A DNA stretch of 64,000 nt from Sphingomonas tagetis (GTDB lineage Bacteria; Pseudomonadota; Alphaproteobacteria; Sphingomonadales; Sphingomonadaceae), in the NCBI RefSeq assembly GCF_024211275.1, contig NZ_JAMLDX010000015.1:1-64000 (forward strand), given 5' to 3'. The notes under the pieces are model-generated. The model was not told the DNA's origin. It saw nothing but the letters and a program-made list of their open reading frames with translations, and ran no database searches. Both the position numbers and the translations under genes were made by a program. Shown piece after piece: positions 21,707-64,000 of the stretch. The first letter of the stretch is position 1; the number at the start of each line of letters is the position of its first letter.

Positions 21707-21721
21707 TCCGACTGCCGTTCA

Positions 21722-21761: not shown

Positions 21762-21870
21762 GTGCAAGCTGTAGCCTGCCATGTCGGCGCGGCGGTATCG
21801 TTGCGCGCCGACGCTCACCCGAGACCGCGCACATCGTGTCGGAATTTGGCGAGCCCGGTGCGCACCTAGA

Positions 21871-22930
21871 TGTGAGCTTTCAGGAGGTTGTTCATCCGGT
21901 GTGACCGGGCAAGACTGATGTTGCGACCCGTCAGCTTGCGAGGAACGACCGGATGAACATCCACAAGAATGCCCGAACCACGCCCTACAGTCGAGCCGAG
22001 ATCGTCCGGCGGGTGGTCCTGCTTGGCGAGACACCGAGTGCGGTCGCGACCGCACTCGGTGTCTCGTGCCGAACCGTGGCCAAGTGGCTGGCGCGCTACC
22101 GACGCGAAGGCGCAACCGGGCTTGCCGAGCGCAGCTCACGGCCACGCCGGATGCCTTATGCCACACCTGCCGATATCGTCGAGCAGGTCATCGCGCTGCG
22201 TCGTCAACGCCTCGTCGGCAAGCAGATCGCGGCGGCGCTGACGCTCTCGTCGGCAACCGTCAGCCGCATCCTGCGCAAGGCGCACCTCAGCCGGGCGCGC
22301 GACCTCGATCCGCCCGAACCGGTGCGCCGCTACGAACGCAATCACCCCGGCGAGCTCATCCACATCGACATCAAGAAGCTCGGCCGCTTCGAACGTGTCG
22401 GCCACCCGCTTCACTCGGGAGCGCACCAGGCAGGCGAACCACCGCGGCTACGGGGATGGCCAACGCTATGGCGTCGGCTGGGAGTATGTCCATGTCTGCA
22501 TCGACGACGCCTAGCGCATCGCCTTAAGCCAGGTGCTCGCCGACGAGAAGGCAGCCAGCGCTGTTCCGTTCCTTCACGCCGCCGTCGCCTATTATGCCAG
22601 CCTTGGCATCACCGTCACACGCGTCATGACCGATAACGGATCATGCTACAAAAGCTTCGCCGTCCGCGACGCCTGCAAGGCGCTCGGCCTCAAGCATATC
22701 CGCACCAGACCCTACACTCCCAAGACCAACGGCAAGGCCGGACGCTTCATCCAGACCTCCCTGCGCGAATGGGCATACGCTCAAGCCTATCCCACCTCAG
22801 AACACCGCAAGGCCGCCCTCCAACCTTGGGCTCCACAACTATAACTGGCATCGACCACACGGCAGCCTACAATCCATGACACCCATCAGCCGACTCCCTC
22901 AGCCGATGAACAACCTGTTGAGGCTCCACA
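21871..22930 (+). mobile_element. IS481-family insertion sequence, degenerate
   Basis: A 1060-bp element. The ends are imperfect inverted repeats: the left begins TGTGAGCTTTCAGGAGG and the right, read inward, begins TGTGGAGCCTCAACAGG. Both continue into an identical AGGTTGTTCATC. CCTAGA occurs immediately outside each end (21865-21870 and 22931-22936), a 6-bp target-site duplication that fixes the borders. The internal gene resembles IS481 transposases but is broken. The right end lies on the 3' end of the FAD oxidase gene without removing residues. Confidence 0.85.
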
Positions 22931-25160: not shown

Positions 25161-25988
25161 CTATTCGCCCCGCGACGCTGCGCCGAAAGAGAGCGGCGGC
25201 AACGCGGACTTCACGACCATGCCGCCATCCGCCGGAAGGATCACGCCGGTAACATGCGAAGCAAGGCCTGAGGACAGGAACAATAATGCCGACGCGATCT
25301 CCGATGGATCGGCACTGCGGCCACTCGGACTGGCGCCGTCAAGGGCCTGCCACCCCCCGTCGCCGAGCAGATCCAGCATGCGAGGTGTGCGGATGAAGCC
25401 GGGCGCGACAGCGTTGATGCGAATCCCGCGTGCGCCGAGCTCTGCCGCTGCACCTCGTACCAGCTGGTTCAGCGCGGCCTTTGCCGAACCGTACAGCACC
25501 TGATTCTCGACATAGCGCTCCCCCGCCAGTGAACTCACGAACGCCATCGTTCCGCCGTCGACCATCGCCTTTGCACCCGCGGCGATCGCGTACAGCGCGT
25601 GGCGATAGACGATGTCGAGCTGCCACGAAATATCCTGCGGCGACATGTCGACGATGGGTTTGATCCGCGCCATGCCGATCACATCGACCAGCCCATCAAC
25701 CCCGCCTAACCTGCGTGCGGCCTCGGTAAAGGCGGCCTCGACCTGAACCGGATCGGTCACGTCCGCGACAAAGGCAGTGCCTCCGATTTCCTCGGCGATG
25801 CGCTTCGCACGATCGCCGTCGATATCAACGCACAACAGCCGTGCCCCGCACTGCGCGAGCGCGTGTGACACCTGAATCCCGATGCCCTCGCCGGCGCCCA
25901 GCACCACGAACCTGCGTCCGTGCAGGTCCAGCATCGATCGAAAGTCGGGAATGTGCATTTTTGCCGTCATCGTACGTGCCTTCAGCAT
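25161..25988 (-). CDS. SDR family oxidoreductase
   Basis: A 275-residue SDR with an atypical cofactor loop, LGAGEGIG (about residues 31-38) instead of TGxxxGIG. Asp in LCVDID indicates NAD. The catalytic set is SSLAGERY with YGSAKAALNQL, and the C-terminus holds GVILPADGGMVV. The usual NNAG is replaced by DVIGMA, so this is a divergent member. The start overlaps the stop of the Rieske oxygenase gene by one base (TGATG), so the two are translationally coupled. It may dehydrogenate the diol or alcohol product of that oxygenase, as cis-dihydrodiol dehydrogenases do; this is inference from coupling. Confidence 0.87.
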   Translation of the reverse strand: MLKARTMTAKMHIPDFRSMLDLHGRRFVVLGAGEGIGIQVSHALAQCGARLLCVDIDGDRAKRIAEEIGGTAFVADVTDPVQVEAAFTEAARRLGGVDGLVDVIGMARIKPIVDMSPQDISWQLDIVYRHALYAIAAGAKAMVDGGTMAFVSSLAGERYVENQVLYGSAKAALNQLVRGAAAELGARGIRINAVAPGFIRTPRMLDLLGDGGWQALDGASPSGRSADPSEIASALLFLSSGLASHVTGVILPADGGMVVKSALPPLSFGAASRGE

Positions 25989-27313
25989 CAGTCCACAGAA
26001 GCCGCGTTCGCAACCTCACCTTGCTGTCGTGCCGTCGCACCAAACGGGATCAGCGAACGCCAATCGACGCCGGGCGCGACGAGGGTATCGAACGCCGCAA
26101 GATCAGTACAGTCGGCATAGTTTGCGCCCCGCGCGTCGTGGCCCGCCGCAACGTCGTCCGCCGCGCCGAGCAACAGCTTTCGAACGCGCGCGACCGAAAC
26201 GTCGGCCGCAACCAGATGCTCGCGGGTGCGGTCGGCGATGCTGCCGGCAGCAACGCCCATAACCGCGTCTTCGAAAGCGACGCCGGGAAGGCCGGTCCAA
26301 TGCACCTTCATCTTGTCTCGATCCTGGCCCATGCCGTTCGACCAATTGGCCCGGAACTCGTTATCCTCGTCCGACCAGTAGCGCGGATCATTCAATCCCA
26401 GCAGGCGCTTCAGATGTCCACGATCGACCGGCTGCTCTCCGTGAATAACGAAGAACGTCGCCGTCGTCGTATCATCCATGGGCACTTCAAACACGGTGAA
26501 CAACACCTTTGGCGCGGGAATGAAGCGAATGGTCGGCATCAGAAACGGATAGACCCGCGCATGCCGTTCGCGCGTCTCGTCAAACTTCCCGTCCACGCGG
26601 TCGGACTGGCGGAAAGCGACATATTGGAAGCCGTACTCGGTGTCCTCCAGCTCCATCGCCGGAGCATTGTCCTCGACCGCGAATGCCGCCGGGTTCATGG
26701 TGTCGGCACTGGGCGTAAACGTCTTCTCCAGCCAGCCCGGGCGCGCATTGTCGCTGTGCAGGATGCCGACATGCGAACTGTCGGACCCCTGCTCGACCAA
26801 CTGCAGGTAATTGCAGCGCTGAACGACTCGAAAGATCGTACGATGCGAATCCGGCACGTCTATGAATGCGAAATGCCGGAATGGCGGCACCCGGTCCTGC
26901 GGCCCCAGATAAGCCCACAGCATCCCGCCCGCTTCATGAGTCTTGTACGCCGGCGCTTTCATGCGCGCTTTGAACCGCGCGTCGCAATGGTTCGGCGTCT
27001 CCTGGATGGTACCGTCCGCGCCGAACTTCCACCCATGATACAGACACCGGATACCGTTATCCTCGACCCGTCCTAGTGCAAGCGACACGCCCCGATGCAT
27101 GCACATCTCTTCGAGCAGACCAACCTGGCCGTCGCTGTTTCGGAACGCCACCAGGTTTTCGCCGAACAAACGGATGCGAATCGGCCGACAATCGGGCTCG
27201 GGCAAGTCGGACGACAGCGCGAACGGCATCCAATAGCGGCGCATGACGGCACCCATCGGCGTCCCCGAACCGACCTCACACAGTTTCTTGTTCTCGGCAG
27301 CAGTGACCATCAT
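25988..27313 (-). CDS. Rieske aromatic-ring oxygenase, alpha subunit
   Basis: A 441-residue terminal oxygenase resembling phthalate 4,5-dioxygenase and related O-demethylases. The Rieske [2Fe-2S] ligands are complete: Cys71, His73 (CMHRG) and Cys90, His93 (CLYHGWKF). The mononuclear iron site is in EQGSDSSHVGILH, followed by the long catalytic domain. It should insert oxygen into an aromatic ring, or demethylate one, using electrons from the reductase at 36829. No beta subunit is nearby, consistent with the homo-oligomeric group. The regulon palindrome lies 12-27 bases upstream of the ATG, overlapping the expected leader. A downstream SDR is coupled. Confidence 0.93.
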   Translation of the reverse strand: MMVTAAENKKLCEVGSGTPMGAVMRRYWMPFALSSDLPEPDCRPIRIRLFGENLVAFRNSDGQVGLLEEMCMHRGVSLALGRVEDNGIRCLYHGWKFGADGTIQETPNHCDARFKARMKAPAYKTHEAGGMLWAYLGPQDRVPPFRHFAFIDVPDSHRTIFRVVQRCNYLQLVEQGSDSSHVGILHSDNARPGWLEKTFTPSADTMNPAAFAVEDNAPAMELEDTEYGFQYVAFRQSDRVDGKFDETRERHARVYPFLMPTIRFIPAPKVLFTVFEVPMDDTTTATFFVIHGEQPVDRGHLKRLLGLNDPRYWSDEDNEFRANWSNGMGQDRDKMKVHWTGLPGVAFEDAVMGVAAGSIADRTREHLVAADVSVARVRKLLLGAADDVAAGHDARGANYADCTDLAAFDTLVAPGVDWRSLIPFGATARQQGEVANAASVD

Positions 27314-31004: not shown

Positions 31005-32309
31005 TCAGGATGCGCTCGCCAGCGCGGGTTCCGAACCCATCAATTTCTTGAGGTTGCTCGGATCAATATTGGGCAGCGCGCTGCTTTCGCCGAGCATGCC
31101 GGGCAGGTCTTGCCACCGCATGTCGGGACCGATCACGCCCTGCGCCTGGCCCAGCACCATTTCTGGCCCAAGCCCCCGTGCAGGCTGGCCGGCCATCACG
31201 CCTTCGCAGTTGGCGATCATCGCGCGTCGCATGCGCACGATCCCGATGTCAGAGGGCACCAGCGATTCATATTCCCGGGCATCCAGCCGCAACATCGACG
31301 CGGTAACGGCGGCATCCTCGCCGATCACCGGGTACAGCCCGCTGAACGTCTCGCGCCGGCGCATTGCCTCACGGTCCTGCAGGAAGTTGTTCTCACGCAT
31401 TGCCGTCCCCGGCTTGCCATGATGTTCCCGCCCGAGGCCGAACGTCTTCGCGCCATATTCGTCCAGACCGAAAAAGGCATCGCGCTGCGCCTTGTCGACC
31501 GGAGCCTCCATGCTCCAGAAAATGTGATAGAAGATCGTCCGGCTATTATCGATCGGCACCGCATAAAGTAGACCACCTCCGCCCGGAACCGCGCACACTG
31601 ACGGGAACTGGAAGTTGGTAACACGCGCGACCTCGTGCATCTTGCCGTCCGCGCCACGGACGTCGCGGATCGCCGCATAGCGGCAGCCATATTCGGTTTC
31701 CTCGGCCTCGAACCGCGGCGCAAGATCCCGGCCGACTGCGGCGCTGCCGAATGCCTGATGAAGGATGGCGAGGTGCGAAGAGTCGAGTCCGCTTTCGATC
31801 ACCTGGATGAAATTGGCCTCGAACATCGGCGCGCCGATATACACATGGCTTTCGGGCACGTCGAAGAACGACCAGTGAAGGAATGGCGGCTCATGTTCGG
31901 CCGGGCCGAGATAGACCCAAATCATGCCGCCCGCTTCGCGAACGGGGAAGGCCGGCTGGCGATATTTGTCGGTGAACCGTTCGGGATTGCGGCAGTTCAA
32001 CATCTCAAGCACCGTGCCGTCCGGCGCAAATTTCCAGCCATGATAAATGCAGCGGATGCCGCCGTCTTCGACACGACCTAACAGGAGCGAGGCACCGCGA
32101 TGGCAGCATTGCTCGCGCATGACCGCAACTTGCCCCACGGTATTGCGGAACATGACATAGTCCTGGCCAAGCAAGGTGATCGGCTTGGGATCGGAATCGG
32201 GTTCGGGAAGGTCCGAGCTCAGGCCACAAGGCAGCCAATAGCGCTTGACCGTGTCGTGCATCGGTGCGCCCGGCTCGATATCGCACAACAGCTTCGCTTT
32301 ATCAATCAT
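31005..32309 (-). CDS. Rieske aromatic-ring oxygenase, alpha subunit
   Basis: A 434-residue terminal oxygenase of the phthalate-dioxygenase/O-demethylase group. Rieske ligands are Cys68, His70 (CCHRG) and Cys87, His90 (CIYHGWKF). The non-haem iron site is in ESGLDSSHLAILHQ. It shares the layout YWLPCGLSSDLPEPD with the oxygenase at 25988 but is clearly a separate paralogue, so the two likely act on different substrates or positions. It is first in its operon, ahead of the Rieske pseudogene. A perfect regulon palindrome lies 88 bases upstream of the start, and electrons probably come from the reductase at 36829. Confidence 0.93.
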   Translation of the reverse strand: MIDKAKLLCDIEPGAPMHDTVKRYWLPCGLSSDLPEPDSDPKPITLLGQDYVMFRNTVGQVAVMREQCCHRGASLLLGRVEDGGIRCIYHGWKFAPDGTVLEMLNCRNPERFTDKYRQPAFPVREAGGMIWVYLGPAEHEPPFLHWSFFDVPESHVYIGAPMFEANFIQVIESGLDSSHLAILHQAFGSAAVGRDLAPRFEAEETEYGCRYAAIRDVRGADGKMHEVARVTNFQFPSVCAVPGGGGLLYAVPIDNSRTIFYHIFWSMEAPVDKAQRDAFFGLDEYGAKTFGLGREHHGKPGTAMRENNFLQDREAMRRRETFSGLYPVIGEDAAVTASMLRLDAREYESLVPSDIGIVRMRRAMIANCEGVMAGQPARGLGPEMVLGQAQGVIGPDMRWQDLPGMLGESSALPNIDPSNLKKLMGSEPALASAS

Positions 32310-40087: not shown

Positions 40088-40984
40088 TCAGTCGATTGGC
40101 GCCCGGGGCAGTACGGCATCCCCGGGTTCCATCGTCAGCGTGAAATCGAGCGAGTGCCAAGGACCGTCGATGCCGTCGCGCGGTTCCTCGTGCCGGACAT
40201 ATTCGGCAGTCAGCGCGCTGGTGACGGCGAACTGCACGTCACTGTCGATGTTCGGATCGGCCGGGTCATAGATCTGGCTGATCAGAACCTTGAACCCCTG
40301 CTTGACGACCAATGCGTGAAGATGAGCCGGGCGGAACGGGTGCCGTTTCTGGGCGCCCAGCAATTCACCCACGACGCCACCGGTCGGAATGGGATAGCCG
40401 ACCGTACGCACGGTCCAGAAATCGACGATCCCCGTCGCATCGGTCGTCAGCTTGCCGCGTAGATTGTGATCGGCCTGTGCATCATCCTGATTTTCATAAA
40501 GACCTGTCGGGGCCGCCTGCCACACATCGACCTCTGCGCCAGCGACCGGCCGCCCTTCGGGGTCCACCACCCGCAATCGGACGTAGACGGGATCACCGGG
40601 TGTTTCGCTGCGGACGATGCTGCCACCGTTAGGAGTCACCGGCGAATGCATCCGCCAGAACGGACCCAGCAGCGATTGCGACGTCTCGGTCTGGCCGGCA
40701 TTCCCGTTGTTGAGAAGGCAGACCAGCGCGGACACTCCCAGCGACCCGGCCATCAGCACCGCTTCGTTATGCCGTGCATTGGAAAGCTGGCCGATTCGGT
40801 TGATCAATGCCGTCGCCGTTCGGAATTCCGCTTCGGTGAGGCCCACCTCTCGCACGAACCCGTGAAGATGCTTGATCAGCGCAACCATCAATTCCCGCAG
40901 GCGAGGGTCCGGCGTCGCCTGCATCACGCGCAGCACATTTCCGGTGATGTCGTCGGGACCCTTGACTGGCTGTAGCTTGATCAT
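40088..40984 (-). CDS. Intradiol ring-cleavage dioxygenase (catechol/hydroxyquinol type)
   Basis: A 298-residue non-haem Fe(III) dioxygenase. The N-terminal dimerisation domain (residues 1-100) is of the catechol/hydroxyquinol 1,2-dioxygenase type. The catalytic beta-sandwich carries the two Tyr and two His ligands: Tyr in PTGLYENQ, Tyr in TVGYPIP and both His in FRPAHLHALV. ETSQSLLGPFW is the usual entry to the catalytic domain. It would cleave a catechol, or more likely a hydroxyquinol, between the hydroxyls. It heads an operon with HpaH/HpaI-type genes, an unusual pairing since those normally follow extradiol cleavage. Confidence 0.92.
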   Translation of the reverse strand: MIKLQPVKGPDDITGNVLRVMQATPDPRLRELMVALIKHLHGFVREVGLTEAEFRTATALINRIGQLSNARHNEAVLMAGSLGVSALVCLLNNGNAGQTETSQSLLGPFWRMHSPVTPNGGSIVRSETPGDPVYVRLRVVDPEGRPVAGAEVDVWQAAPTGLYENQDDAQADHNLRGKLTTDATGIVDFWTVRTVGYPIPTGGVVGELLGAQKRHPFRPAHLHALVVKQGFKVLISQIYDPADPNIDSDVQFAVTSALTAEYVRHEEPRDGIDGPWHSLDFTLTMEPGDAVLPRAPID

Positions 40985-41054: not shown

Positions 41055-42365
41055 CTATGCGGCGAACAGCAATGCCGGGGTCTCCAGCAGCTTCTTCACC
41101 GCCTGGACATAGCTTGCCGCGTCCCAGCCATCGACCACGCGATGGTCGCAACTGATCGACAGGTTCATCAGCTTCGCGCGGACGATGTCCTCACCCAGGA
41201 ACACGGGACGCTCGACGATCTTGTTCGGCCCGATGATCGCGACTTCCGGCTTGTTGATCACTGGCGTCGTCGCGATGCCGCCCAGCGGCCCGAGCGAGGT
41301 GACGGTGATGGTCGAACCCGACAGCTGCTCGCTCTTCGCCTTGCCGGTCCGCGCGGCGTCGGCAAGGCGCGTGATCTCGCTCGCCAGCTGCCACACATTC
41401 TTGTCCTGCGCGTCGCGCAGCACCGGCACCATCAGCCCGGCATCGGTCTGTGTCGCCATGCCCATATGCACACGCCCGTGCCGCGTCACCACGCCGGCCT
41501 CGTCGTCATAGTGCGCGTTGAGCAAAGGGAAATCGGGCAGCGTGCGGCAGATCGCGACGATCAGGAACGGCAGCATGGTGAGCTTGGGCCGAGCGCCGCG
41601 ATTGGCGTTGAGGTCCGCGCGCATCGCCTCCAATGCCGTGACGTCGATCTCGTCGACATAGGTGAAGTGCGGGATCGCGCGCTTTGACGCCGCCATATTC
41701 TCGGCGATGCGGCGGCGCATGCCAATCACCTTAACCGGCACGTCCTCGCGCGCGCGGCTGGCATGCGGTGCGTGATAGCCTTGGCCCGAGCCATAGCGCA
41801 GGAACGCGTCGAGGTCGGCGTGCCGCACGCGGTCGCCATCCGCCTTGACCTGCGCCAGGTCGACGCCGAGGTCCTTCGCGCGCTGCCGCACCGCGGGTGA
41901 GGCAAGGACGGCGCGATCCGTTTCCCCCATTGTCGCCGGTGCGTCGCTCGGCTGTTCTGCAACGGGCGCGGAATGAACGGCAGGCGAAGGCGCGACCACT
42001 TCCTCGACGCCGGGATTTTCAGCCTCGATCTGTTCCTCGACCGCCTCGCTCACCGGCACCGGCTCAACCGCCATCCCGGCGGCATCGACCGTCGCTTCGG
42101 GCTCGGGCTCCACAGCCACCTCGCCGTCGGTTTCCACCACCATCAGCGCCGAGCCGATCGGCACCAGATCGCCGACCTCGCCCGCCAGCTCGACCACCGT
42201 GCCGGACACCGGCGACTCCATTTCGACCGTCGCCTTGTCGGTCATCATGTCGGCGACCTGCTGGTCTTCCTCGACTCGATCGCCGACCTTGACGTGCCAG
42301 GCGACGACCTCGGCCTCGGCGATGCCTTCGCCGATGTCGGGCAGACGAAAGGTGAAACGTGGCAT
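41055..42365 (-). CDS. Branched-chain 2-oxoacid dehydrogenase E2, lipoyl acyltransferase
   Basis: A 436-residue acyltransferase. The N-terminal lipoyl domain has Lys44 in DKATVEM as the lipoylation site. An acidic, Pro/Ala/Glu-rich linker (about 85-150) follows, then the E3/E1-binding domain (LASPAVRQRAKDLGVDL) and the catalytic domain ending with DHRVVDGWDAASYV, where His and Asp are catalytic. It transfers the acyl group from E1 to CoA. The ATG at 42365 is one base past the E1beta stop. E1alpha, E1beta and E2 form one operon; no E3 (dihydrolipoamide dehydrogenase) gene is present, so E3 must be supplied from elsewhere. Confidence 0.94.
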   Translation of the reverse strand: MPRFTFRLPDIGEGIAEAEVVAWHVKVGDRVEEDQQVADMMTDKATVEMESPVSGTVVELAGEVGDLVPIGSALMVVETDGEVAVEPEPEATVDAAGMAVEPVPVSEAVEEQIEAENPGVEEVVAPSPAVHSAPVAEQPSDAPATMGETDRAVLASPAVRQRAKDLGVDLAQVKADGDRVRHADLDAFLRYGSGQGYHAPHASRAREDVPVKVIGMRRRIAENMAASKRAIPHFTYVDEIDVTALEAMRADLNANRGARPKLTMLPFLIVAICRTLPDFPLLNAHYDDEAGVVTRHGRVHMGMATQTDAGLMVPVLRDAQDKNVWQLASEITRLADAARTGKAKSEQLSGSTITVTSLGPLGGIATTPVINKPEVAIIGPNKIVERPVFLGEDIVRAKLMNLSISCDHRVVDGWDAASYVQAVKKLLETPALLFAA

Positions 42366-42366
42366 C

Positions 42367-43380
42367 CTAAACCTCGATAATCTGTCGGATGGCGCGAGCG
42401 ACGCGCGCCGGACCAGGGAAATACTCCCACTCGAACGCGTGCGGGTACGGCGTGTCCCATCCCGTGACTCGCATGACTGGCGCCTCCAGCGCATAGAAGC
42501 AATGTTCCTGCACCAGCGCCGCCAGTTCTGCGCCAAAGCCACAGGTGCGCGTCGCTTCATGGACGACGATACACCGCCCCGTCTTTTCAACCGATGTCGT
42601 GATCGTTTGCAGGTCGAGCGGGATGAGCGTGCGCAGGTCGATCACCTCGACGTCCACGCCGGCTTCCTGTGCCGCTGCCAGCGCGACATGCACCATCGTG
42701 CCATAAGCGAGCATCGTGAGCGCCTCGCCGGGACGAGCTATTTTCGCTTTCCCAAGCTCGATGCGATAATGTTCAGCGGGAACAGCACTGGCCGGATGGC
42801 CCGCCCATGACTGTACCGGTCGGTCGTGATGACCGTCGAACGGACCGTTATACAGCCGCTTGGGTTCAAAAAAGAGAACCGGGTCATCGTCCTCGATCGC
42901 CGCGATCAGCAACCCCTTCGCGTCATGCGGATTCGAAGGGATGACTGTCTTCAACCCGGCGACATGTGTGAAAATGCCTTCGGGCGACTGACTGTGCGTT
43001 TGCCCACCGTAAATTCCGCCGCCATAGGGCGAGCGCACGGTGATCGGAGACCACCACTCGCCCCCCGTGCGATAGCGCATCCGTGCAGCTTCCGAGATCA
43101 GCTGATCGGTGGCGGGATAGATATAGTCGGCGAACTGAATCTCGACGACCGGCCGCTTGCCATATGCGCCCATGCCCACGGCCGCCGCGACGATGCCGGC
43201 TTCGGTTATCGGTGCGTCGAACACCCGATCCCGGCCATGCTTGCGCTGCAAGCCATCGGTCGCCCTGAACACGCCGCCGAAATAGCCCACGTCCTGGCCG
43301 AAGATGAGGACGTTCCTATCGCTTGCCAGCACGCAGTCGAGTGCGGAATTGATCGCTTCGATCATGTTCATCTGCGGCAT
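42367..43380 (-). CDS. Branched-chain 2-oxoacid dehydrogenase E1 beta
   Basis: A 337-residue transketolase-like subunit: MNMIEAINSALDCVLASDRNVLIFGQDVGYFGGVFRATDGLQ, the TPP-side motif FDAPITEAGIVAAAVGMGAYG, and the C-terminal transketolase domain with VEVIDLRTLIPLDLQTI and HEATRTCGFGAELAALV. With E1alpha it decarboxylates a branched-chain 2-oxo acid. It fits the BkdA2-type length. It starts 4 bases after the E1alpha stop and ends one base before E2. Placement in an aromatic regulon suggests that the complex handles a 2-oxo acid arising from ring or side-chain breakdown as well as, or instead of, amino-acid catabolism. Confidence 0.94.
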   Translation of the reverse strand: MPQMNMIEAINSALDCVLASDRNVLIFGQDVGYFGGVFRATDGLQRKHGRDRVFDAPITEAGIVAAAVGMGAYGKRPVVEIQFADYIYPATDQLISEAARMRYRTGGEWWSPITVRSPYGGGIYGGQTHSQSPEGIFTHVAGLKTVIPSNPHDAKGLLIAAIEDDDPVLFFEPKRLYNGPFDGHHDRPVQSWAGHPASAVPAEHYRIELGKAKIARPGEALTMLAYGTMVHVALAAAQEAGVDVEVIDLRTLIPLDLQTITTSVEKTGRCIVVHEATRTCGFGAELAALVQEHCFYALEAPVMRVTGWDTPYPHAFEWEYFPGPARVARAIRQIIEV

Positions 43381-43384
43381 GGGG

Positions 43385-45669
<2,285 letters not shown>

Positions 45670-46281: not shown

Positions 46282-47553
46282 TCAACGGGCTGGAGGTTGC
46301 GGCGCTGATCGACCAAAGCGCGGCTCGCCCAGTGTGGCAATCGCGATACCCGTCGCGGCAGAAATGGCCATCGTAACGATCAGGAATAGCGCATAGCTGC
46401 CGAACTGGTCGTAAAACGCACCGGCAATCAGTGGCCCCAGCGCAGCCCCCAGCGATAGCGCGCCGACCATCGCGCCGAATAAAACGCCGAAACTTTTGAG
46501 CCCCATATATCTGGCGCAAAGGAAGGCGATGACATCGACTTCGGCGCCTACCGTCAAACCGAGAAATATGGCGGCGACAACGTTATTGACCGTTCCCCCT
46601 GCCCCCCCGGAGAGCAGCAGCAGGCTGGCGATGATCGGCATCGTGAAGATGCAGGAACCGACGACGCGCCCCGGAAAGCGATCGAGTAGCAGGCCGGTCG
46701 CAAGACGGCCCACGATCGAAAAAATACCGACAAGCGATGCGGTCGAGGCTGCGCTCATCCGGTCGACACCTCGCTCCGACAAGATCGGCACGAAATGGAC
46801 CATCAGCCCCATCAGTCCGAACATGAACAAGCCGCTTGCCCCGACCAGCTTGTAGAAAGACAAGGAACGCAGTCCCTCCGCTACGCTAAATCCCTCGACA
46901 ACCATGAGGCTGTCCGTTGCTTCTTCGCTGCGGGCATGCGGCGCAGAGCGAAACCACGGCAGGACGACCGCCAGCACGATTGCCACCCAAATCGCAGCGA
47001 GGCCCCAGAATGCAGTTCGCCACCCATATGATTCGATCAACCAGCTCCCCAGCAATGGATAAACCGTCGCCCCAACCGATGTACCGGATAGCGTCACCGC
47101 CAGGGCAAGCCCGCGCGATCGCTCGAACCGTGATGCAACAGCCTTGGTCCAGACTGTCGGCTGGCTCAGCAACGCCGCGAGGGCAATGACGGACCATAGC
47201 AACAGCCAGTTCGTCATCGTCCCGCTCGCGGTACTCAACAGTCCAAAAGCCAGGGGGGACAAGACCACGCCCGCCAGCCCGACCTTACGAACACCGACGC
47301 GATCGACCAGCATGCCGACCGGAACGCTCATCGCCGCCCCGACAAGACCGGACAGTGCCGCTCCCGTCGTGATCTCTGTGCGGGACCAGCCGAACTCCTG
47401 TTGCAACGGCTCGATGAACGGACCCATTGCGTACATTTGCAGCACTGAGATTGAACAGCCAAAGGCGGCCGCGAAGGGCAGCGTACCATGATGACGCCAT
47501 TCCGAGGCAGGATTTGAGTCGGGCGATGGCGTCGGGCCGCTAATGGTGTTCAT
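46282..47553 (-). CDS. MFS transporter, monocarboxylate/oxalate-type
   Basis: A 423-residue inner-membrane carrier with 12 predicted helices. The N-terminal GCSISVLQMYAMGPFIEPLQQEFGWSRTEITTGAALSGLVGAAMSVPVGMLVDRVGVRKV is typical of the monocarboxylate/oxalate-formate group. A long cytoplasmic loop (PHARSEEATDSLMVVEGFSVAEG) separates the halves. It probably imports an aromatic or short organic acid. The start ATG 47553 follows AGAGAG; GTG 47559 is an alternative. A regulon palindrome lies about 115 bases upstream, placing this carrier in the oxygenase regulon. It converges on the Lrp gene with 11 bases between. Confidence 0.92.
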   Translation of the reverse strand: MNTISGPTPSPDSNPASEWRHHGTLPFAAAFGCSISVLQMYAMGPFIEPLQQEFGWSRTEITTGAALSGLVGAAMSVPVGMLVDRVGVRKVGLAGVVLSPLAFGLLSTASGTMTNWLLLWSVIALAALLSQPTVWTKAVASRFERSRGLALAVTLSGTSVGATVYPLLGSWLIESYGWRTAFWGLAAIWVAIVLAVVLPWFRSAPHARSEEATDSLMVVEGFSVAEGLRSLSFYKLVGASGLFMFGLMGLMVHFVPILSERGVDRMSAASTASLVGIFSIVGRLATGLLLDRFPGRVVGSCIFTMPIIASLLLLSGGAGGTVNNVVAAIFLGLTVGAEVDVIAFLCARYMGLKSFGVLFGAMVGALSLGAALGPLIAGAFYDQFGSYALFLIVTMAISAATGIAIATLGEPRFGRSAPQPPAR

Positions 47554-47666
47554 TTTCACTCTCTATGCACGAACGATCATGTTCTGGACGGCAAGTGGCG
47601 CTCGATCTAGGTGCCAACCGGGGACAGTCACATTTCAACCACAGGTGCACTCGTTCGCAAAACGAA

Positions 47667-47682
47667 ATCTTCCTCGGAAGCA
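47667..47682. promoter_or_regulatory. Regulon palindrome I
   Basis: ATCTTCCTCGGAAGCA; CTTCC-NN-GGAAG is intact. It is the last copy of the series, upstream of the MFS gene (start 47553). Confidence 0.65.
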
Positions 47683-47822
47683 AATTGAGCAGCGGCGGCA
47701 GGTGCGCGGCGATCTTTTTTGACATGTCTCGACGGCGCGCGATGTCTTAGCACCGACACCTCCCGTAGGGGTCACCACCGGGTGACTTTCAAGAGCACAT
47801 CTGGCATGGTCGCCAATAGATC

Positions 47823-48077
47823 ATGAGAAGGCGCCTCTCTACGATAACGCGCACGGTGCTTGAGGACGCCGGCCTGACGGCCGGCGAGCTCGACGCTGAA
47901 CTCGACGCGCGAGTTCCATCACGTGCGGGTCTCATGCTGCGTAAACACCACCCAATGCTTACTCGGATAAGTAACGCCTCAGGGGTGAATGTCGCCCAGG
48001 TATGCCGAAAGCCGCGCTATCTGCCGCTCCAGATCGAAGCCATGAAAGAGAATCGAGCACATTGGCTGTATCGCTAG
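47823..48077 (+). CDS. Hypothetical protein, uncertain
   Basis: An 84-residue open frame in the otherwise empty 47.7-48.17 kb stretch. The N-terminal half (STITRTVLEDAGLTAGELDAELDARVPSRAGLML) looks helical and protein-like. I do not recognise a family, and no clear ribosome-binding site precedes the ATG. It could be the remnant of a chromosomal or island gene beside the attachment site. A small inverted repeat (GTCACC/GGTGAC, 47771-47786) lies upstream. Apart from this frame, the 620-bp gap between the MFS gene and the tRNA fragment holds palindrome I and nothing else I can identify. Confidence 0.3.
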   Translation: MRRRLSTITRTVLEDAGLTAGELDAELDARVPSRAGLMLRKHHPMLTRISNASGVNVAQVCRKPRYLPLQIEAMKENRAHWLYR

Positions 48078-48171
48078 TTGGCCCCACGTAAGTGCGTTTT
48101 TTCGTGCCGTAGCGGCTTGAGTGACACATTGAAGCTAGCGCTTGAGGGTAGGTTGCTTGCGGGCTTTATAA

Positions 48172-48220
48172 TGGTGGGCGTGGCAGGGATTGAACTTGCG
48201 AACCCTGCGATGTCAACACA
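48172..48220 (-). tRNA. tRNA-Val(GAC) 3' fragment, attachment-site remnant
   Basis: On the minus strand this reads the 3' half of a tRNA: anticodon GAC (complement of 48212-48214), the T-arm with GGTTCAA-like sequence, the 3' acceptor strand CACGCCC and an encoded CCA (complement of 48172-48174). The 5' half (acceptor strand, D-arm) is missing to the right. Two or three T-arm bases differ from the usual sequence. A 3' tRNA fragment next to an excisionase gene is the classic mark left when an integrative element inserts into a tRNA gene; here the element would lie to the right. Confidence 0.75.
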
Positions 48221-48275
48221 GCGTCCGCAAGACACCGTCAGCAGGTCTCGGTGATTTCTACTCAGCGAAGGTGTA

Positions 48276-48518
48276 TCATCGCCTGTTCCGCTCCACCAAT
48301 CGTTGCAGACTTTCCACAGTAATGAGCGTCGCCGTACCGATCTTCGCCATATCTATCTCGCCTCGCGCGATCAGCTGGTAGAGCTTGGATCGCCCTATCC
48401 CGGTCATCCGGATCGCGGCCGGGATGCGCACGGTGATGGGCAAGATCACCTCATCTTGCGCGGCTTTCGACCTTTGCTCGTCGAGCCGCATCTGCCGGCT
48501 CAGTGCCTTCCGGTCCAT
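48276..48518 (-). CDS. AlpA/MerR-like excisionase-type DNA-binding protein
   Basis: An 80-residue protein. ILPITVRIPAAIRMTGIGRSKLYQLIARGEIDMAKIGTATLITVESLQRLVERNRR is a helix-turn-helix of the helix_turn_helix_17/AlpA group: TGIGRSKLYQLI contains the recognition helix and IGTATLITVESL the wing. Such proteins act as excisionases (recombination directionality factors) or activators of integrase genes. The ATG at 48518 follows a purine-rich AAGGAAGAAG. Its position 55 bases inside the tRNA fragment supports that role. No integrase gene is in the window; it may lie at the other end of the element. Confidence 0.82.
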   Translation of the reverse strand: MDRKALSRQMRLDEQRSKAAQDEVILPITVRIPAAIRMTGIGRSKLYQLIARGEIDMAKIGTATLITVESLQRLVERNRR

Positions 48519-48546
48519 GGGCTTCTTCCTTTCGCTTGGGGTGATG

Positions 48547-50523
48547 TCAGGCAGGGTTGGCAGGTTGCCACAGCTCGTTTGGACGGCTCTGCCGTTGAAC
48601 GGTTTTCCGCTCCTGGCTCCGCGGACTGACGAAAGCCGAGTCCGGCTGGGGCGCGTCGTGGTTATCGGGGCTCTGACCTGCCTCGTCGCGCGCTTCGGGC
48701 GCGCGATCGTTCTGAGGCTCCGGCAACGGCAACACGGACTGTGGAACTTCAACCAGGTCGGCGGTTGCCACCGGTTTTTCGGTTTTCGGTTCATCCTGAA
48801 TTCGCTTCGGCAGCGTTGTCCGCTTGATGAACGCAGGCTCCCGAACGGGCGCGTTGCGATACTTGCAGCGGAACCGGATCACCGGCAGATCGCGCCCGAA
48901 CCGCAGGTAGCCGGTGAGGTTGGGCAGGTTGACGATCTCGGTCGGCATGACCAGCGGCCGGGTGACCTGCTGGCGCGAGAGGTTGACCCCATCACGCATG
49001 TCGCTAACCCCATATGACATGCCTTCATTGGCCTCCACCTGCTCGACCTGCCCCAGGTTCTCGGAGACGTGGCGCGCAGTCGGCGTGTCGTTGGCGCGCA
49101 GCGCCACCCAGGTCGAACAATAGCCGGTGATCGCGGCGGCTTCCTGGACACCGTAGGTTGCCTCAAGCTGCGGATAGGACTGGAACCCGAGGATGCCGCA
49201 CCCGCCATATTTGCGGGCACGCGCGAGGAAGTCGCCGAGTGAGGGGAGCCGCTGGAGCGAGGGGAGTTCGTCGATCACGCAGTAGAGCCGGCGACACTGG
49301 TGAGGCGCCATGCTCATGATCGCGCTGATCGCGATATCGAGCCACATGGTGATCAGCGGGCGGAGCGTCGGCAGCTGGTCGGCCTTGACCGTGATGAACA
49401 GCCAGCTGTCGTCATCTTCGTTGGTGACCCAGTCGCGGATCGACAGGCCGCGATCGCTGTCGTCGAGATAGCGGAACCCGCGCAGGACTGAGGCGAGCTC
49501 GGCCTGGATGCCCGCCGAGGTACGCTCGCCCTCCTGCGAGATGAACGCCGCGCCCTCGGTGTTCTGCACGAACGCCGACAGCCCCTTGAGCCCCGAGCGG
49601 GTGAGGATGTCCATCAGCACCGACACCCGCATGCGGTCCTTATGGACCAGCGTGCGCATTACCGCGACCAGCGTGCCGCGCGCCGCCTTGGCCCAGAACG
49701 GGTCCTTGCCGGTATCCGGCACGACCGACTCCGCGATCTGATCGTAGTGATATTCTTCGGGGACATCGGCCCACGGCGTCCAGAGCGCCGAACGCTCGTC
49801 GAGCGGGTTGAGCAGCACGTCCCGGCCGGGGCGATAGAACCGCTCCACGAATGAGCCGGCGGTGTCATAGACGATCGCCCGCCTGCCCTGTTGGCGGATA
49901 CCGTCGAGCATGATGTTGATGAGGTTGGTCTTGCCGGTGCCGGGCGCGCCGCTGACGAGGATATGCTCGGGCTCGAACGCCGCCGGCATCGGCACGCCGC
50001 CAATCCTGAAGCTGCCGCGTTTCTTCCATCGAAGCTGCCAGCGCAGCCCGCGCGCGGTGCCGAACCTCGCCCCGCGCAGATACTGGTTGGAGCCGAGCCC
50101 CTTGCCGGTGCGGGTGAAGTAGAACCACGCGCCCACCATCACGAGGAACGCGAACAGCCCCGACAGGATCGCCCCGCGCACGAGATGCTGCTCGGCCGCC
50201 TTGAGCGCATTTTCCGCGACACCCGAGCCCAGCATCGCCTTTGCGCTGGTCCAGTACTTCATGCCCCAGGGCGTCTCGAACAGGAGCGGCGCACTCGTGC
50301 CCGGCACCCCCGATTTAAGGTAGGCTTCGGCGACCTTGGCCAGCACGTAGCGCTGGTATTCGCTAAGCTGCTCATAGGCGTACCACAGGGTGCAGCCGGC
50401 CCAGATCACCCCGCTGGCCAGCAGGGTCTGGAAGAACACCTGCGTGGTCATGCGGATGTTGTGGACGATCGCCTGACCGCCCCGCGTCCAGGAGCCGACC
50501 GTGTTGTTGCGGAAGATGCTCAT
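48547..50523 (-). CDS. traD: Type IV coupling protein TraD
   Basis: A 658-residue conjugation ATPase that couples the relaxosome to the mating channel. Two N-terminal membrane helices lie at about 28-50 and 116-136. Walker A GAPGTGKT is at residues 192-199, and Walker B is in RLYCVIDELPSLQRLPSL. The QSYPQLEATYG motif and the C-terminal proline-rich tail suit F-type TraD. It overlaps by four bases the upstream ribbon-helix-helix gene (ATGA). Together with the oriT candidate at 51148 it marks a conjugative element. A relaxase gene is not in the window. Confidence 0.93.
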   Translation of the reverse strand: MSIFRNNTVGSWTRGGQAIVHNIRMTTQVFFQTLLASGVIWAGCTLWYAYEQLSEYQRYVLAKVAEAYLKSGVPGTSAPLLFETPWGMKYWTSAKAMLGSGVAENALKAAEQHLVRGAILSGLFAFLVMVGAWFYFTRTGKGLGSNQYLRGARFGTARGLRWQLRWKKRGSFRIGGVPMPAAFEPEHILVSGAPGTGKTNLINIMLDGIRQQGRRAIVYDTAGSFVERFYRPGRDVLLNPLDERSALWTPWADVPEEYHYDQIAESVVPDTGKDPFWAKAARGTLVAVMRTLVHKDRMRVSVLMDILTRSGLKGLSAFVQNTEGAAFISQEGERTSAGIQAELASVLRGFRYLDDSDRGLSIRDWVTNEDDDSWLFITVKADQLPTLRPLITMWLDIAISAIMSMAPHQCRRLYCVIDELPSLQRLPSLGDFLARARKYGGCGILGFQSYPQLEATYGVQEAAAITGYCSTWVALRANDTPTARHVSENLGQVEQVEANEGMSYGVSDMRDGVNLSRQQVTRPLVMPTEIVNLPNLTGYLRFGRDLPVIRFRCKYRNAPVREPAFIKRTTLPKRIQDEPKTEKPVATADLVEVPQSVLPLPEPQNDRAPEARDEAGQSPDNHDAPQPDSAFVSPRSQERKTVQRQSRPNELWQPANPA

Positions 50524-53783: not shown

Positions 53784-54788
53784 TCAGGCCGCGACGCGGG
53801 CACGCGCCCGCGGCAGCGCCGGTGCCGACTCGGCCTGGTCCGCCTTCTTGAAGGCGTGGATCGGCACCCCGGCATCGCGCAGCAGCTGGTAGAGATTGGC
53901 CTGCAACCCCGACCCCTCGCACAACACCGCCTCGACCGGCTTGAGCTCGACCAGCTTGCGGTTGCGCGTGAACGCCACCTTCCGGCCCGAGCCATAAAGC
54001 CCATAGGCGACCACCGGCACGTTGACGCCCGGCCGCGCCGCCCAGGCGGCGGCAATCGCATCGGCGCCCTTGCGCTGCCCGGTGGTGACCAGGGTCATGT
54101 GCGGCACCCGCGCCATGATCTGGTCGAGCCGCGCCCAGAGCGCTTCCCAGTCGTGCCATTGCGCAGGACCGGAGAACACCACGATCGGCCCCTGCGGGAG
54201 ATGCCGGTCGCGCTGCTCGAGCGCCCGCGCGCGCAGAAAATCCTGCGCCGCGATCTGGCTCGCCGACGAGGCGGTCGATGCCCGCGTGCCGCGCGCCGGG
54301 GACCAGGGCCAGCCCGAACAGGCACGGTACATTTCGGCGGCATAATCGCGCATGCACTCGATCGCCTCGCGCTGCTCGGCGAGCGACTGGCAGAGCAGCT
54401 GCTTCTCCTCGAGCTCGACCGTATAGATCTCGCTCAGATCCGGCGCGCGCGCCATCCCGCCAAGCTCCTGCGCGATGCCGTCCTCGCGTCGCTCGAGCTT
54501 CCCCGCCACGAAGTGAAAGGAGTTCACGAACCCCCAGGCGATTTCGGCCGCCAGCGGCTCGAGCCGTGTGCCGCTGAACAGGTCGAAGATGGTGGCGACG
54601 ATGCCCGCGCAATCCGCCTGCACGGCGAGGGGCTCGGGCATCTCATGCTCGGCGGGCGCCTCGCCCGGTTCGACGATCGAGAGCGGCAGCGGGTCTCCAA
54701 AGGCGGCCCGGAATTCGGGGGTCGCGGTGGCTTCGGCGTAAAGCTGCTTGAGGTCGGCGAAGCCGCCGACACTTGAAGGACGGGACAT
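53784..54788 (-). CDS. DUF2493 (YspA-like SLOG) protein, paralogue
   Basis: A 334-residue protein with the same arrangement as that at 51611: a helical N-terminal half containing LAAEIAWGFVNSFHFVAGKLERREDGIAQEL and LLCQSLAEQREAIECMRDYAAEMYRACSGWPWSPARG, then the DUF2493 domain GPIVVFSGPAQWHDWEALWARLDQIMARVPHMTLVTTGQRKGADAIAAAWAARPGVNVPVVAYGLYGSGRKVAFTRNRKLVELKPVEAVLCEGSGLQANL. The two are clearly duplicates but well diverged, so they probably have separate partners. It lies downstream of the DUF736 gene in the same direction. Confidence 0.83.
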   Translation of the reverse strand: MSRPSSVGGFADLKQLYAEATATPEFRAAFGDPLPLSIVEPGEAPAEHEMPEPLAVQADCAGIVATIFDLFSGTRLEPLAAEIAWGFVNSFHFVAGKLERREDGIAQELGGMARAPDLSEIYTVELEEKQLLCQSLAEQREAIECMRDYAAEMYRACSGWPWSPARGTRASTASSASQIAAQDFLRARALEQRDRHLPQGPIVVFSGPAQWHDWEALWARLDQIMARVPHMTLVTTGQRKGADAIAAAWAARPGVNVPVVAYGLYGSGRKVAFTRNRKLVELKPVEAVLCEGSGLQANLYQLLRDAGVPIHAFKKADQAESAPALPRARARVAA

Positions 54789-54857: not shown

Positions 54858-55328
54858 TCAGTAGGGCACGACGTCATCGAGATCCGAGCCGGCACCCGCA
54901 CCGGCGAACGAGCCGTCCAACCCGGCCGTGCTCTCGCCGAACCCGCCCTGACCGGACGGTGCATCATCGCCTCGGCCAGTCCGCACCGACGTGCCGAAGT
55001 CATCGCGACGCTGCGGACGGCGCCAGGCGACGCGATAGCCCTCCTCGTTGTTGCCGAACAACGCGACCGGCAGCGGCTCGGCCAGGCTCGGATCGTCGAT
55101 CGTGCCCTGGTAGAAGACCTCGCCGGTGGTATGCTTGGCGACGGCCTCCCACAGCGCGCCGACCTGCACCCAGCGATTGCCGACATTGAGCGCGACGATC
55201 TCGAAGACCGGCGCGCGGTCGTTGCTGCTCTCGACCGGACGCAGCCCCAGCCGCGGCAGATCGATCGTGCGGGTGGCGATCGAACCCATCAGACGGCCAT
55301 TGCTCTGCTTGAACTCACCGATATTCAT
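54858..55328 (-). CDS. DUF736 family protein
   Basis: A 156-residue protein. The N-terminal 105 residues are DUF736: MNIGEFKQSNGRLMGSIATRTIDLPRLGLRPVESSNDRAPVFEIVALNVGNRWVQVGALWEAVAKHTTGEVFYQGTIDDPSLAEPLPVALFGNNEEGYRVAWRRP. A Gly/Ser/Asp-rich tail ending in DLDDVVPY resembles the acidic C-terminal tails of single-stranded-DNA-binding proteins, so binding to replication or transfer partners is possible; that is inference. DUF736 genes are a regular marker of alphaproteobacterial conjugative elements. The ATG at 55328 follows AAGGAAAATGTC. Confidence 0.85.
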   Translation of the reverse strand: MNIGEFKQSNGRLMGSIATRTIDLPRLGLRPVESSNDRAPVFEIVALNVGNRWVQVGALWEAVAKHTTGEVFYQGTIDDPSLAEPLPVALFGNNEEGYRVAWRRPQRRDDFGTSVRTGRGDDAPSGQGGFGESTAGLDGSFAGAGAGSDLDDVVPY

Positions 55329-58601: not shown

Positions 58602-59792
58602 TCAGTTGAGCTTCTGGAACAGACGCTTTGCCTTGCTCTCGAGCTCCAGGCGGGCATCCTGATTGGTCTTGGCGCGGGCCACGGCGGTGATGCCCTGCAC
58701 GAAGTCGAACACCGATTCCGGCGGGCGGCCTTCCTCGGCCAGCACCGTGGCGATGATCTTGCCGGTATCCGCCTTGGAGAAACCCTGCGCGCGCAGGAAT
58801 GTCTCGCGGTCCTCGTCCTTGCGGGCGATAATCCGCTCACGCGCGGCCTCGATCCCGCGGACGAAATCCTTCGGCGAGGAGTCGGCAAAATGGGTCAACG
58901 CCGGCGCGGCCTGCTGGGCGAAGCGGTTGGCGGCGAACTTCGAGTGGCGGATGCTGATCTCCTCGAAATTCTCGACGCCCCACAGATTGCGGTTCATGCA
59001 CACCGCGCGGAGATAGAAGGTCGCGATGCCGAGCGTGGTCTTGCCGACCTCGCTGTTCCAGCAATAGAAGCCGCGAAAATAGAGGTCGGGATCGCCGTTC
59101 GGCAGCCGCCCGGCTTCGATCGGATGGGTGTCGTCGACCAGGAACAGGAAGACATCGCGATCGGACGCGTAGAGGGTCGTGGTCTCGGTGCTCACATCGA
59201 CATAGGGATTGTAGACCATCGACCCCCAGTCGAGCACGCCGGGTACCTTCCAGCGTGTATCGCCGGTGCCATTGCCGGCAAAGCGCATCACGGCCTCGAC
59301 CAGCTCATGATCCCAGATGCGGCCATAATCGGGACCGGTGACGGCGCGAAGCTCGGTGCGGCCATCACTGGTTTCGAGCAGTTTCACATGCTCCCCGCGA
59401 TGCGCGATCAGGCCGTGTTGCATGTTGATGCCGGCAAGCGCCGCAGGCAGCTCGCGGAGATAGCCCGCCGGCGCGCCGACCAGACTGGCAAGTTGTCCGA
59501 ACGACCAGTGCGTGGGTACGACCGGTTCGTCGGAATCGGGAACGAGCAGTTGCAGCCGCTCGGCATTGTCGCTGCTGGCCTGAACGCGGATCGCGCGGCT
59601 CTCGACGATTCGGGTGGTGGCACCCTCGGCGCGGGCGCGGACGTGCGCGTAGAGCGCATCGAGCGAAAGGAAGCGTTCGTCATCCGGACGGCTGAACCAT
59701 TCGGACGAGACGCGGCTGATATTGCGGCCGCGGCTGATATCGACCTTGAAGCCGGCCGGCACGGGCCGGTCGACGGTAGCGAGCATGTTCAT
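58602..59792 (-). CDS. DUF932 family protein
   Basis: A 396-residue protein of the DUF932 (phage/plasmid-like) family: FGQLASLVGAPAGYLRELPAALAGINMQHGL, VTGPDYGRIWDHELVEAVMRFAG, VFLFLVDDTHPIEAG, YFRGFYCWNSEVGKTTLGIATFYLRAVCMNRNLWGVENFEEISIRHSKFAANRF. The family is common on plasmids and phages; some members were linked to counter-defence, but no activity is established here. The ATG at 59792 follows AGGAGACCCTCC. A gap of about 125 bases separates it from the toxin gene upstream; it probably heads the run of small genes down to 56.8 kb. Confidence 0.88.
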   Translation of the reverse strand: MNMLATVDRPVPAGFKVDISRGRNISRVSSEWFSRPDDERFLSLDALYAHVRARAEGATTRIVESRAIRVQASSDNAERLQLLVPDSDEPVVPTHWSFGQLASLVGAPAGYLRELPAALAGINMQHGLIAHRGEHVKLLETSDGRTELRAVTGPDYGRIWDHELVEAVMRFAGNGTGDTRWKVPGVLDWGSMVYNPYVDVSTETTTLYASDRDVFLFLVDDTHPIEAGRLPNGDPDLYFRGFYCWNSEVGKTTLGIATFYLRAVCMNRNLWGVENFEEISIRHSKFAANRFAQQAAPALTHFADSSPKDFVRGIEAARERIIARKDEDRETFLRAQGFSKADTGKIIATVLAEEGRPPESVFDFVQGITAVARAKTNQDARLELESKAKRLFQKLN

Positions 59793-62605: not shown

Positions 62606-64000
62606 TCAGGCCGAGCCCAACGGCGCACCAGCGCTTTGGCCAATCGCAGCGACGATCCCCTCGGCTCTGCTGACCGGCACGAACACGCGGGTCTTGTAGG
62701 CAATGATCTCCGTGAAGCAGCCGAGCGACTTCAGCCATTCGAGTCGGGTCGGCGGAAAATCCCGAATCTCGAACCGGACATCGTCATTGACACGAGCGCG
62801 GGCCAGGCGAGCAGGTTCAAGCCCTGGAAGCGGCACTCCCTGCCGTGATCGCGCTGCTTCGACAACCTCGCCAGGCGAGAGCGCGATCGCCACCGACACG
62901 CCAAACGCCGAGGCAAGCTTCTCGAACCCGGCGGGCGACACGATCCGCCCGAGGATGGCGGTGCCGCTCTGATCCGCGATCCGCCAGACGCGCATGTCAT
63001 CATCGGGCAGCCGGTTCCAAACCGGCAGGAGCAGCCCAGTCGCCAAGTTGATGGTCTCGATGTCGAGTCGACCTACGATTTCGTCACATTCCGCCTGCCA
63101 GAGCCGCCGGAAGACCGCCTCATCGACCGGGTGCCAAAGGCTTTCGGCGAGGCGTCCCTCGCGAATACGGTCGCTCGCCGCCGGACGCACGAGCTGCCAG
63201 ACCGGGATCGATCGCCCTTCATCGTCCAGGATCGGCCATGATGGCACCTTGAGCGCGACGCGGCCCGAGCGGCTGTTGCGCAGGAACGCCGTCAATGAAC
63301 TGCGTGCCCAATCCGCGAGCAGCCTCGCCAGGGGCAGCGCTCGACGGCGATGATGAAGCTCCAGGCGGCACAGCTTCGTCTCAGCCCCGGTCACCGGATC
63401 GCGCCGCAGCACCTGCTCTTCGAGCAGTTCAACCCGCTCGGCGCTGATCGTCTCGACGCCGACATCGAGCGTGCCGGCCTCGCGCGCCTCGTCGATCCGC
63501 GCCTCGATCAGCGCTAGATATTCCTCGAAAATCGCATTCTGTGTCGCGATCCGCAACGCGAGCAGCCGATTGAGCCAGCGCTGGATCGGCGGCAGCGATT
63601 CGAGCAAGCCGCCATCCTCGGCGGTCAGTCTGAGACCGGTCATGCGCGTGAACGCGTCGAGCGACGTGCTCTTGAGCTTTCCGCGGTAGAGCAGATGGTA
63701 CCATTGAGCGAGCGCGTCACGGGCATAGTCGCTTTCGAGATTATCGGCCGGATCAAACAGATTCTGCCCACCGGTCTGGCGCTGTCCCCGGGTGAGCGCG
63801 CCGAGACTGTCGAGACGGCGCGCAATCGTGCTGATGAAGCGCCGCTCGCCCCGGCAATCGGTCGTCACCGGGCGGAAGATCGGGGCGCTGGTCTGATTCG
63901 TGCGATTGGAGCGGCCTAATCCTTGGATCGCGCTCGACGCGCGCCAGCCCGGTTCGAGCAGGAAATGCACGCGCCGGCGGTCCGCCGACCCGCAATTGCG
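62606..64000 (-). CDS. Strawberry-notch-type helicase, C-terminal part
   Basis: The open frame continues through the right edge, so the N-terminal part is missing; 464 residues are visible. Its first visible block, VHFLLEPGWRASSAIQGLGRSNRTNQTSAPIFRPVTTDCRGERRFISTIARRLDSLGALTRGQRQTGGQNLFDPADN, holds helicase motif VI (QGLGRSNRTNQ) of strawberry-notch/SNF2-like superfamily 2 proteins. The remainder is a family-specific C-terminal domain. Full-length relatives on alphaproteobacterial plasmids are about 1400 residues and often carry a methyltransferase domain in the N-terminal half. A role in element DNA metabolism or defence avoidance is inference. Confidence 0.85.
   Translation of the reverse strand, partial: RNCGSADRRRVHFLLEPGWRASSAIQGLGRSNRTNQTSAPIFRPVTTDCRGERRFISTIARRLDSLGALTRGQRQTGGQNLFDPADNLESDYARDALAQWYHLLYRGKLKSTSLDAFTRMTGLRLTAEDGGLLESLPPIQRWLNRLLALRIATQNAIFEEYLALIEARIDEAREAGTLDVGVETISAERVELLEEQVLRRDPVTGAETKLCRLELHHRRRALPLARLLADWARSSLTAFLRNSRSGRVALKVPSWPILDDEGRSIPVWQLVRPAASDRIREGRLAESLWHPVDEAVFRRLWQAECDEIVGRLDIETINLATGLLLPVWNRLPDDDMRVWRIADQSGTAILGRIVSPAGFEKLASAFGVSVAIALSPGEVVEAARSRQGVPLPGLEPARLARARVNDDVRFEIRDFPPTRLEWLKSLGCFTEIIAYKTRVFVPVSRAEGIVAAIGQSAGAPLGSA

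Follow-up and report, generated by a model that had tools for sequence, protein, structure and literature searches.

The window analysed here, i.e. the whole stretch of 64,000 bases (bases 1-64000 of the 110166-base contig C7, in a draft genome of 4.68 Mb and 58 contigs), carries a 50-nt 3' fragment of a tRNA-Val(GAC) gene at 48172..48221 on the minus strand. This displaced half of an attachment site corresponds to nt 26-75 of the gene and differs by 2 substitutions from the intact copy at C14:71685-71759 (48/50); shuffling the window 100 times with its dinucleotides preserved never gave a match with 3 or fewer mismatches. The fragment comprises the anticodon arm with the anticodon GAC, the T arm and the CCA, and lacks the 5' strand of the acceptor stem and the D arm. 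An earlier note on this DNA had described a fragment that ends in CCA, keeps the anticodon and has lost its 5' half, all of which is seen in the sequence. The position given there (48172-48220) was correct apart from the true end, which lies at 48221.

The 5' break falls at nt 26, where the anticodon stem begins (the stem spans nt 26-30 and the loop nt 31-37, as read from the ARAGORN drawing), i.e. within the anticodon arm, a known crossover site, while the other end coincides with the 3' end of the tRNA gene (nt 75, CCA included). About 18 bases past the CCA (48153..48171, minus strand) resemble the start of the intact gene's terminator in an alignment read by eye; the similarity to C14 runs 16-17 bases beyond the CCA and then stops, with no second terminator arm visible by eye. 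ARAGORN predicted no complete tRNA in the 64-kb window, and no Rfam match was obtained up to E 1 in the region 47000-49500.

Genes on either side of the fragment

The last recognised gene to the left of the fragment encodes an MFS transporter (46282..47559, minus strand). The block further includes genes for the E1 alpha (43385..44767, minus strand) and E2 (41055-42590) components of a 2-oxoacid dehydrogenase, a catechol-type intradiol dioxygenase (40088..40984, minus strand) and two LigXa-like Rieske oxygenases (31005-32309 and, on the minus strand, 25988..27313), together with acyl-CoA enzymes and TonB receptors. Judging from their predicted products, these genes look suited to the degradation of aromatic compounds. 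No integrase was recognised in the 48 kb left of the fragment, either with PF00589 or with the divergent integrase type found on contig C8 (see below). The mean GC3 of ORFs called by our own script is 0.722 in this block, compared with 0.80 in the first 22 kb to the right and 0.84-0.87 in core-like stretches of contigs C8, C14 and C27. The left block is thus probably accessory too, so that the fragment marks a junction of two accessory blocks and not the edge of the core chromosome.

To the right, the gene nearest the fragment encodes an AlpA-like helix-turn-helix protein of 80 aa (48276..48518, minus strand; Pfam HTH_17, PF12728, 1e-7), possibly an excisionase or a regulator. The gene does lie beside the fragment, as claimed previously, but it was said to start 56 bases inside the element, whereas it is the 3' end that faces the fragment, at a distance of 54 bases, with the start about 300 bases away. 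Neither AlpA nor a small ORF at 47823-48077 has a match in phrogs. The adjacent gene encodes a TraD/TrwB-type coupling protein of 658 aa (48547..50523, minus strand), assigned by profile match and locus comparison to a subtype without an adjoining TrwC relaxase. It is followed, all on the minus strand, by genes for two YAcAr (DUF2493) proteins that are colinear with contig C58 (51611..52627, part of the element backbone, and 53784..54788), a DUF736 protein (54858..55328; domain match), a DUF932-type protein (58602..59792; so named from the annotation of plasmid homologues, having no Pfam match of its own) and a strawberry-notch-type helicase (62606..64000), whose ORF runs on to contig position 66985. 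Beyond the window, contig C7 encodes a ParB-like protein and then the F-type proteins TraE, TraK, TrbI/TraB-like, TraC, TraN, TraF, TraH and TraG, up to position 109306. Both a coupling protein and F-type secretion genes are therefore found on C7 to the right of the fragment. A TrwC-type relaxase was not found on the 110 kb of C7, the far end of the element lies off the contig, and one att-like end is seen. The search for a tyrosine integrase on the 110-kb contig was also negative, both with PF00589, which alone misses the divergent C8 type, and with the C8 integrase as query.

Comparison of the best 80 of 121 TraD relatives in public genomes revealed that the gene right after TraD encodes a TrwC-type relaxase in 77 cases and AlpA, as in the window, in 3. 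The named genomes among these relatives suggest that the host is a sphingomonad. The three alpA loci (L129, L132 and L177) have in common with the window a traD subtype whose C-terminus reads ...NPA, followed by alpA and without an adjacent relaxase. The window and the three loci share the stretches before traD and nothing in the 4 kb after alpA (tblastx, E 1e-6), which makes AlpA the last common gene on that side and would fit either an element terminus or a cargo boundary at this point. The placing of AlpA at an element edge thus gained support, although its position beside a tRNA fragment is not a kept arrangement (0/3 relatives with the same TraD-AlpA order). As the three loci contain no tRNA match, AlpA alone proves little about an att end, and we discarded it as proof of one. 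Among 27 fragment- or tRNA-bearing stretches, AlpA gave, besides C7, only one weak match (E 0.016).

When 47 tRNA sequences predicted from this genome were used as queries, a tRNA or a tRNA fragment was detected in the flank (up to 6 kb) of 12 of the best 80 of 121 traD loci: tRNA-Lys in 7, tRNA-Asn in 4 and tRNA-Glu in 1. All 12 are antisense to traD and none is a tRNA-Val, whereas the fragment in the window has the sense direction; in orientation, then, the related traD loci run counter to the arrangement proposed earlier. A plasmid collection contained homologues of TraD and of the backbone, but no record covering 80% of a query spanning the junction.

tRNA-Val(GAC) fragments in the genus and in this genome

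To place the fragment in a wider context, 71 genomes of the genus, including this one, were surveyed with E up to 1e-9, which yielded 17 partial matches. After removal of one match truncated at the edge of its contig (G006) and one fragment of the CAC gene (G064), 12 in other genomes and 3 in this genome remained; a further fragment of this genome, on contig C34, falls below the cut-off and was taken from a separate comparison. A separate 3' fragment of tRNA-Val(GAC) is therefore present in at least 12 of the 70 other genomes (degenerate fragments fall under the E cut-off, so that the true number may be higher), and in all of them it runs to the 3' end of the gene. It starts at nt 30 in 7 of the 12 and once each at nt 23, 26, 28, 29 and 31, a range that includes the breakpoint seen in the window.

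In 8 of these 12 genomes both copies lie on one contig, and in all 8 the fragment follows the intact gene on the same strand, 5.8 to 47 kb further downstream. Seven of the 8 carry an integrase gene close to the intact copy, no more than about 0.8 kb from its 3' end, and the eighth (G009) retains an integrase remnant. These integrases are of at least three kinds: a relative of the C8 integrase, proteins of 341-350 aa (G060 and G065), and one in G081. Moreover, one pair of genomes represents the occupied and the empty state of the site: the terminator after the fragment of G024 nearly equals that after the intact tRNA of G018, and, with a single additional ORF in between, the same series of genes follows, with 75-99% protein identity. 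An ancestral neighbour of tRNA-Val was not found among the 20 stretches compared in relatives, which have gene runs in common only within the pairs G024/G018 and G005/G014 and otherwise share isolated homologues or the response regulator that precedes the tRNA. The uniform polarity, the integrases and the occupied/empty pair establish that such fragments are scars of site-specific integration, with the element on the 5' side of the fragment.

The 50 bases at 48172-48221 are such an integration scar of a tRNA gene, which is a well-understood kind of structure and nothing new in type. Applied to the window, the polarity rule places the putative inserted element to the right of the scar. The geometry proposed in the earlier note, with the element to the right and the catabolic island outside it, agrees with the polarity in all 8 genomes that carry both copies on one contig. 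An arm-like motif of 17 bases, GGCGGAAATCCGGGCTA, precedes (at least 14/17) the C8 fragment of this genome and five of the 13 fragments in relatives; it was picked by eye from the aligned fragments, so that its score on those sequences is circular. It is absent from the C7 fragment, where the best match (9/17) is equalled by 241 of 500 shuffles, a weak negative since 8 of the 13 relatives also have no motif.

The single intact tRNA-Val(GAC) gene that was sought elsewhere in the genome is the copy at C14:71685-71759. It begins 76 bases after a response-regulator gene, which we take to be cpdR. As it is situated on C14 and the fragment on C7, two contigs that do not meet in the assembly, we infer the pairing of the two. 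No integrase was recognised in the 7.3 kb 3' of the intact gene (PF00589 and the divergent C8 type as query; the adjoining ORFs gave no match), and C14:71910-72941 has no match in phrogs. The integrase expected at the element's other end was thus encountered neither on C7 nor on C14 with these two queries. The GC3 3' of the intact gene is low (0.655) for 3.5 kb and then rises to 0.862 in a core-like block; if the latter is chromosomal, the element is not located there. Part of this core-like block is duplicated on C58. The duplicated segment of 3.4 kb (C14:75437-78875 and C58:186731-190169; 87% identity) encodes a globin, an alternative oxidase, a sensor kinase and a response regulator. It was weighed as a candidate for the distal end of an element like that on C7 and set aside, because no element end is seen around its C58 copy. 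A reading in which the fragment and the intact tRNA bracket one single element could not be closed either, given that the two contigs do not meet.

Three more 3' fragments of tRNA-Val(GAC) are present in this genome. The one at C8:77624 matches perfectly from nt 26 on and has a terminator-like hairpin behind it; those at C27:11532-11576 and C34:245749 match at 91% over 47 and 83% over 48 positions, respectively. The 17-base anticodon arm CTGTGTTGACATCGCAG is unaltered in C7, C8, C14 and C34; in C27 it carries a single change. The C8 fragment delimits a 57-kb island (C8:20499-77673; GC3 0.736), whose other end carries a divergent tyrosine integrase (20794-22236; PF13102, phrog_1). The cargo, as far as five scanned proteins indicate, includes an acyl-CoA dehydrogenase, an FMN-dependent dehydrogenase, a TonB receptor and a carbohydrate kinase, and past the fragment lie the core genes for DnaB and then topoisomerase IV subunit A and SAICAR synthetase. 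tRNA prediction detected no tRNA beside the C8 integrase, which points to a later rearrangement. About 1.8 kb past the intact tRNA of C14 lies a homologue of a small ORF that adjoins this integrase; the two are 74% identical. Homogentisate-dioxygenase and ring-hydroxylating-oxygenase genes occur in the DNA that precedes the C27 fragment, and 2-oxoacid dehydrogenase genes adjoin the C34 fragment. All three fragments are therefore found beside metabolic, partly catabolic, accessory DNA. At C27:11532-15162, a TrwC relaxase gene is preceded by only the last codons of a traD, with the degenerate tRNA-Val fragment 0.64 kb upstream of the relaxase gene.

Taken together, tRNA-Val(GAC) is a much-used insertion site in the genus, with fragments in at least 12 of 70 other genomes and four here, i.e. 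more scars in this genome than in the relatives examined. One might speculate, although we consider it rather unlikely, that this gene has been a serial docking site that built part of the strain's aromatic catabolism: the four scars, each beside accessory metabolic DNA, would have been left by more than one type of recombinase, all sharing one anticodon-arm crossover. If this were true, the recombinase of one element could move its neighbours in trans.

Origin of the scar

The reading that we favour, and regard as somewhat more probable than its opposite, is that the F-type element to the right made this scar and that the left block represents an earlier insertion stacked at the same tRNA. 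A recombinase would have exchanged strands in the anticodon stem-loop of tRNA-Val(GAC); the incoming element would have brought its own copy of the tRNA 3' half, thereby displacing the original 3' part, which would be the 50 bases seen here. The inserted element would extend rightwards from 48222 and comprise AlpA, TraD, the backbone and the F-type secretion genes up to contig position 109306, while the catabolic block would stem from an earlier insertion at the same site. The latter had been offered as a fallback in the earlier note; it fits the accessory DNA on the left, a scar joining two accessory blocks favours stacked insertions, and a stacked older insertion is the simplest account of the left block. 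A right-hand origin of the scar is likely but unproven, since the partner end and the integrase have not been found. The scar would fix one likely end of a large conjugative element beside a catabolic block, and the stacking of islands at one tRNA can be put to the test here on a specific example.

The lack of a recognised integrase on either side of the fragment is also what would be expected if the scar were a genuine tRNA-Val integration scar whose element has been lost or rearranged, the right-hand element and the left block having been joined later by deletion, IS activity or homologous recombination. The three other fragments, two of them degenerate, speak for such decay, as does the C8 island, whose integrase and perfect fragment sit at opposite ends with no tRNA by the integrase, a layout that suggests rearrangement; in addition, just about 18 terminator-like bases follow the CCA in the window. 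Set against this, the fragment is 96% intact and lies exactly where the backbone common to four related elements stops, and we judge this course of events possible but somewhat unlikely. The two substitutions relative to the host gene would suit a foreign attP copy, and it might be asked whether the fragment is the left catabolic block's own copy, brought in when that block inserted at tRNA-Val, with the 5' half split off by the right-hand insertion. The composition of the left DNA (GC3 0.722) is in keeping with such an origin. In relatives, however, the integrase of an occupied site lies no more than about 0.8 kb from the intact gene's 3' end (7/8), and none was recognised in the left 48 kb; this proposal, moreover, still requires a right-hand insertion at the same site and so overlaps with the stacked reading. 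We regard it as improbable.

A different arrangement would place the catabolic block inside one large conjugative element, between TraD on C7 and the orphan TrwC relaxase on C27, with the two tRNA-Val fragments as flanking direct repeats. The numbers of genes would allow it, as there are three TraK genes (C7, C15 and C58) and three relaxases (C27, C1 and C58), and the C27 fragment is in matching orientation, 0.64 kb before the relaxase. In G043, which has the TraD-AlpA order, the only close relative of the relaxase is broken and no traD was seen in the stretch read beside it. The traD remnant on C27 is, however, of another subtype (...ARPA) than the traD of the window (...NPA), and the latter subtype has no adjacent relaxase in 3/3 relatives. 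Furthermore, in G041 and G042 a traD, in some cases broken or cut, lies directly upstream of each of the 7 closely related relaxases read there, so that the TraD-AlpA elements of these genomes have no orphan partner. The C-termini of traD argue against the pairing of C7 with the C27 relaxase, and although G043 leans the other way, we rejected it; a single element of this kind seems highly improbable.

Known systems and other elements of the genome

The tDNA-split islands catalogued by Islander (PMC4383910) are, in the parts of that work considered here, closely comparable: a regenerated tRNA and a displaced fragment mark the ends of the element. Crossovers centred on the anticodon form a class of 2083 of 3919 islands there, and tandem arrays occur as well, 125 of at least two islands and 4 of at least three (PMC4383910). 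That approach differs in demanding an integrase in the island and a tDNA and fragment on one replicon, neither of which could be shown for the window. ICEs of Erythrobacter, as far as the portion of PMC4919336 used here describes them, likewise adjoin tRNA genes, and in two strains a single tRNA has been the target of integration twice. The ICEs at tRNA-Val(CAC) are reported to be inserted in the reverse direction to ICEs at other tRNAs (PMC4919336), which, by analogy, would match the polarity at the scar in the window; their target is tRNA-Val(CAC) and not GAC, and the two cases are likened by the description of the insertion, not by gene order. ICEclc-like aromatic-degradation ICEs (PMC9960961, in the sections drawn on here) are also conjugative, carry genes for aromatic catabolism and are attached at the 3' end of a tRNA gene, and tandem amplification of the clc element is the subject of a paper cited there, as its title indicates. 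They differ from the present case, in which the secretion genes are F-type and the catabolic genes lie, by polarity, outside the element.

A paralogous element on C58 has the same backbone order as C7:48870 to 99746, with about 40 of 51 kb aligned in order at 71-82% DNA identity. Its end differs: there, TraD is followed by a relaxase and a tyrosine integrase, and the fragment at that end is a 3' fragment of tRNA-Thr, not tRNA-Val. tRNA-Thr(TGT) is thus a second tRNA used by this element family. The tRNA-Thr(TGT) 3' fragment (C58:72574-72617) and the intact tRNA-Thr(TGT) gene (C27:15762-15837) each lie shortly after a TrwC relaxase gene, and a 29-base match to the 5' end of a tRNA-Thr gene is found near the intact copy, at C27:16302-16330. 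Finally, C36:806-3176 contains three consecutive integrase genes, a row that presumably resembles a recombinase trio.
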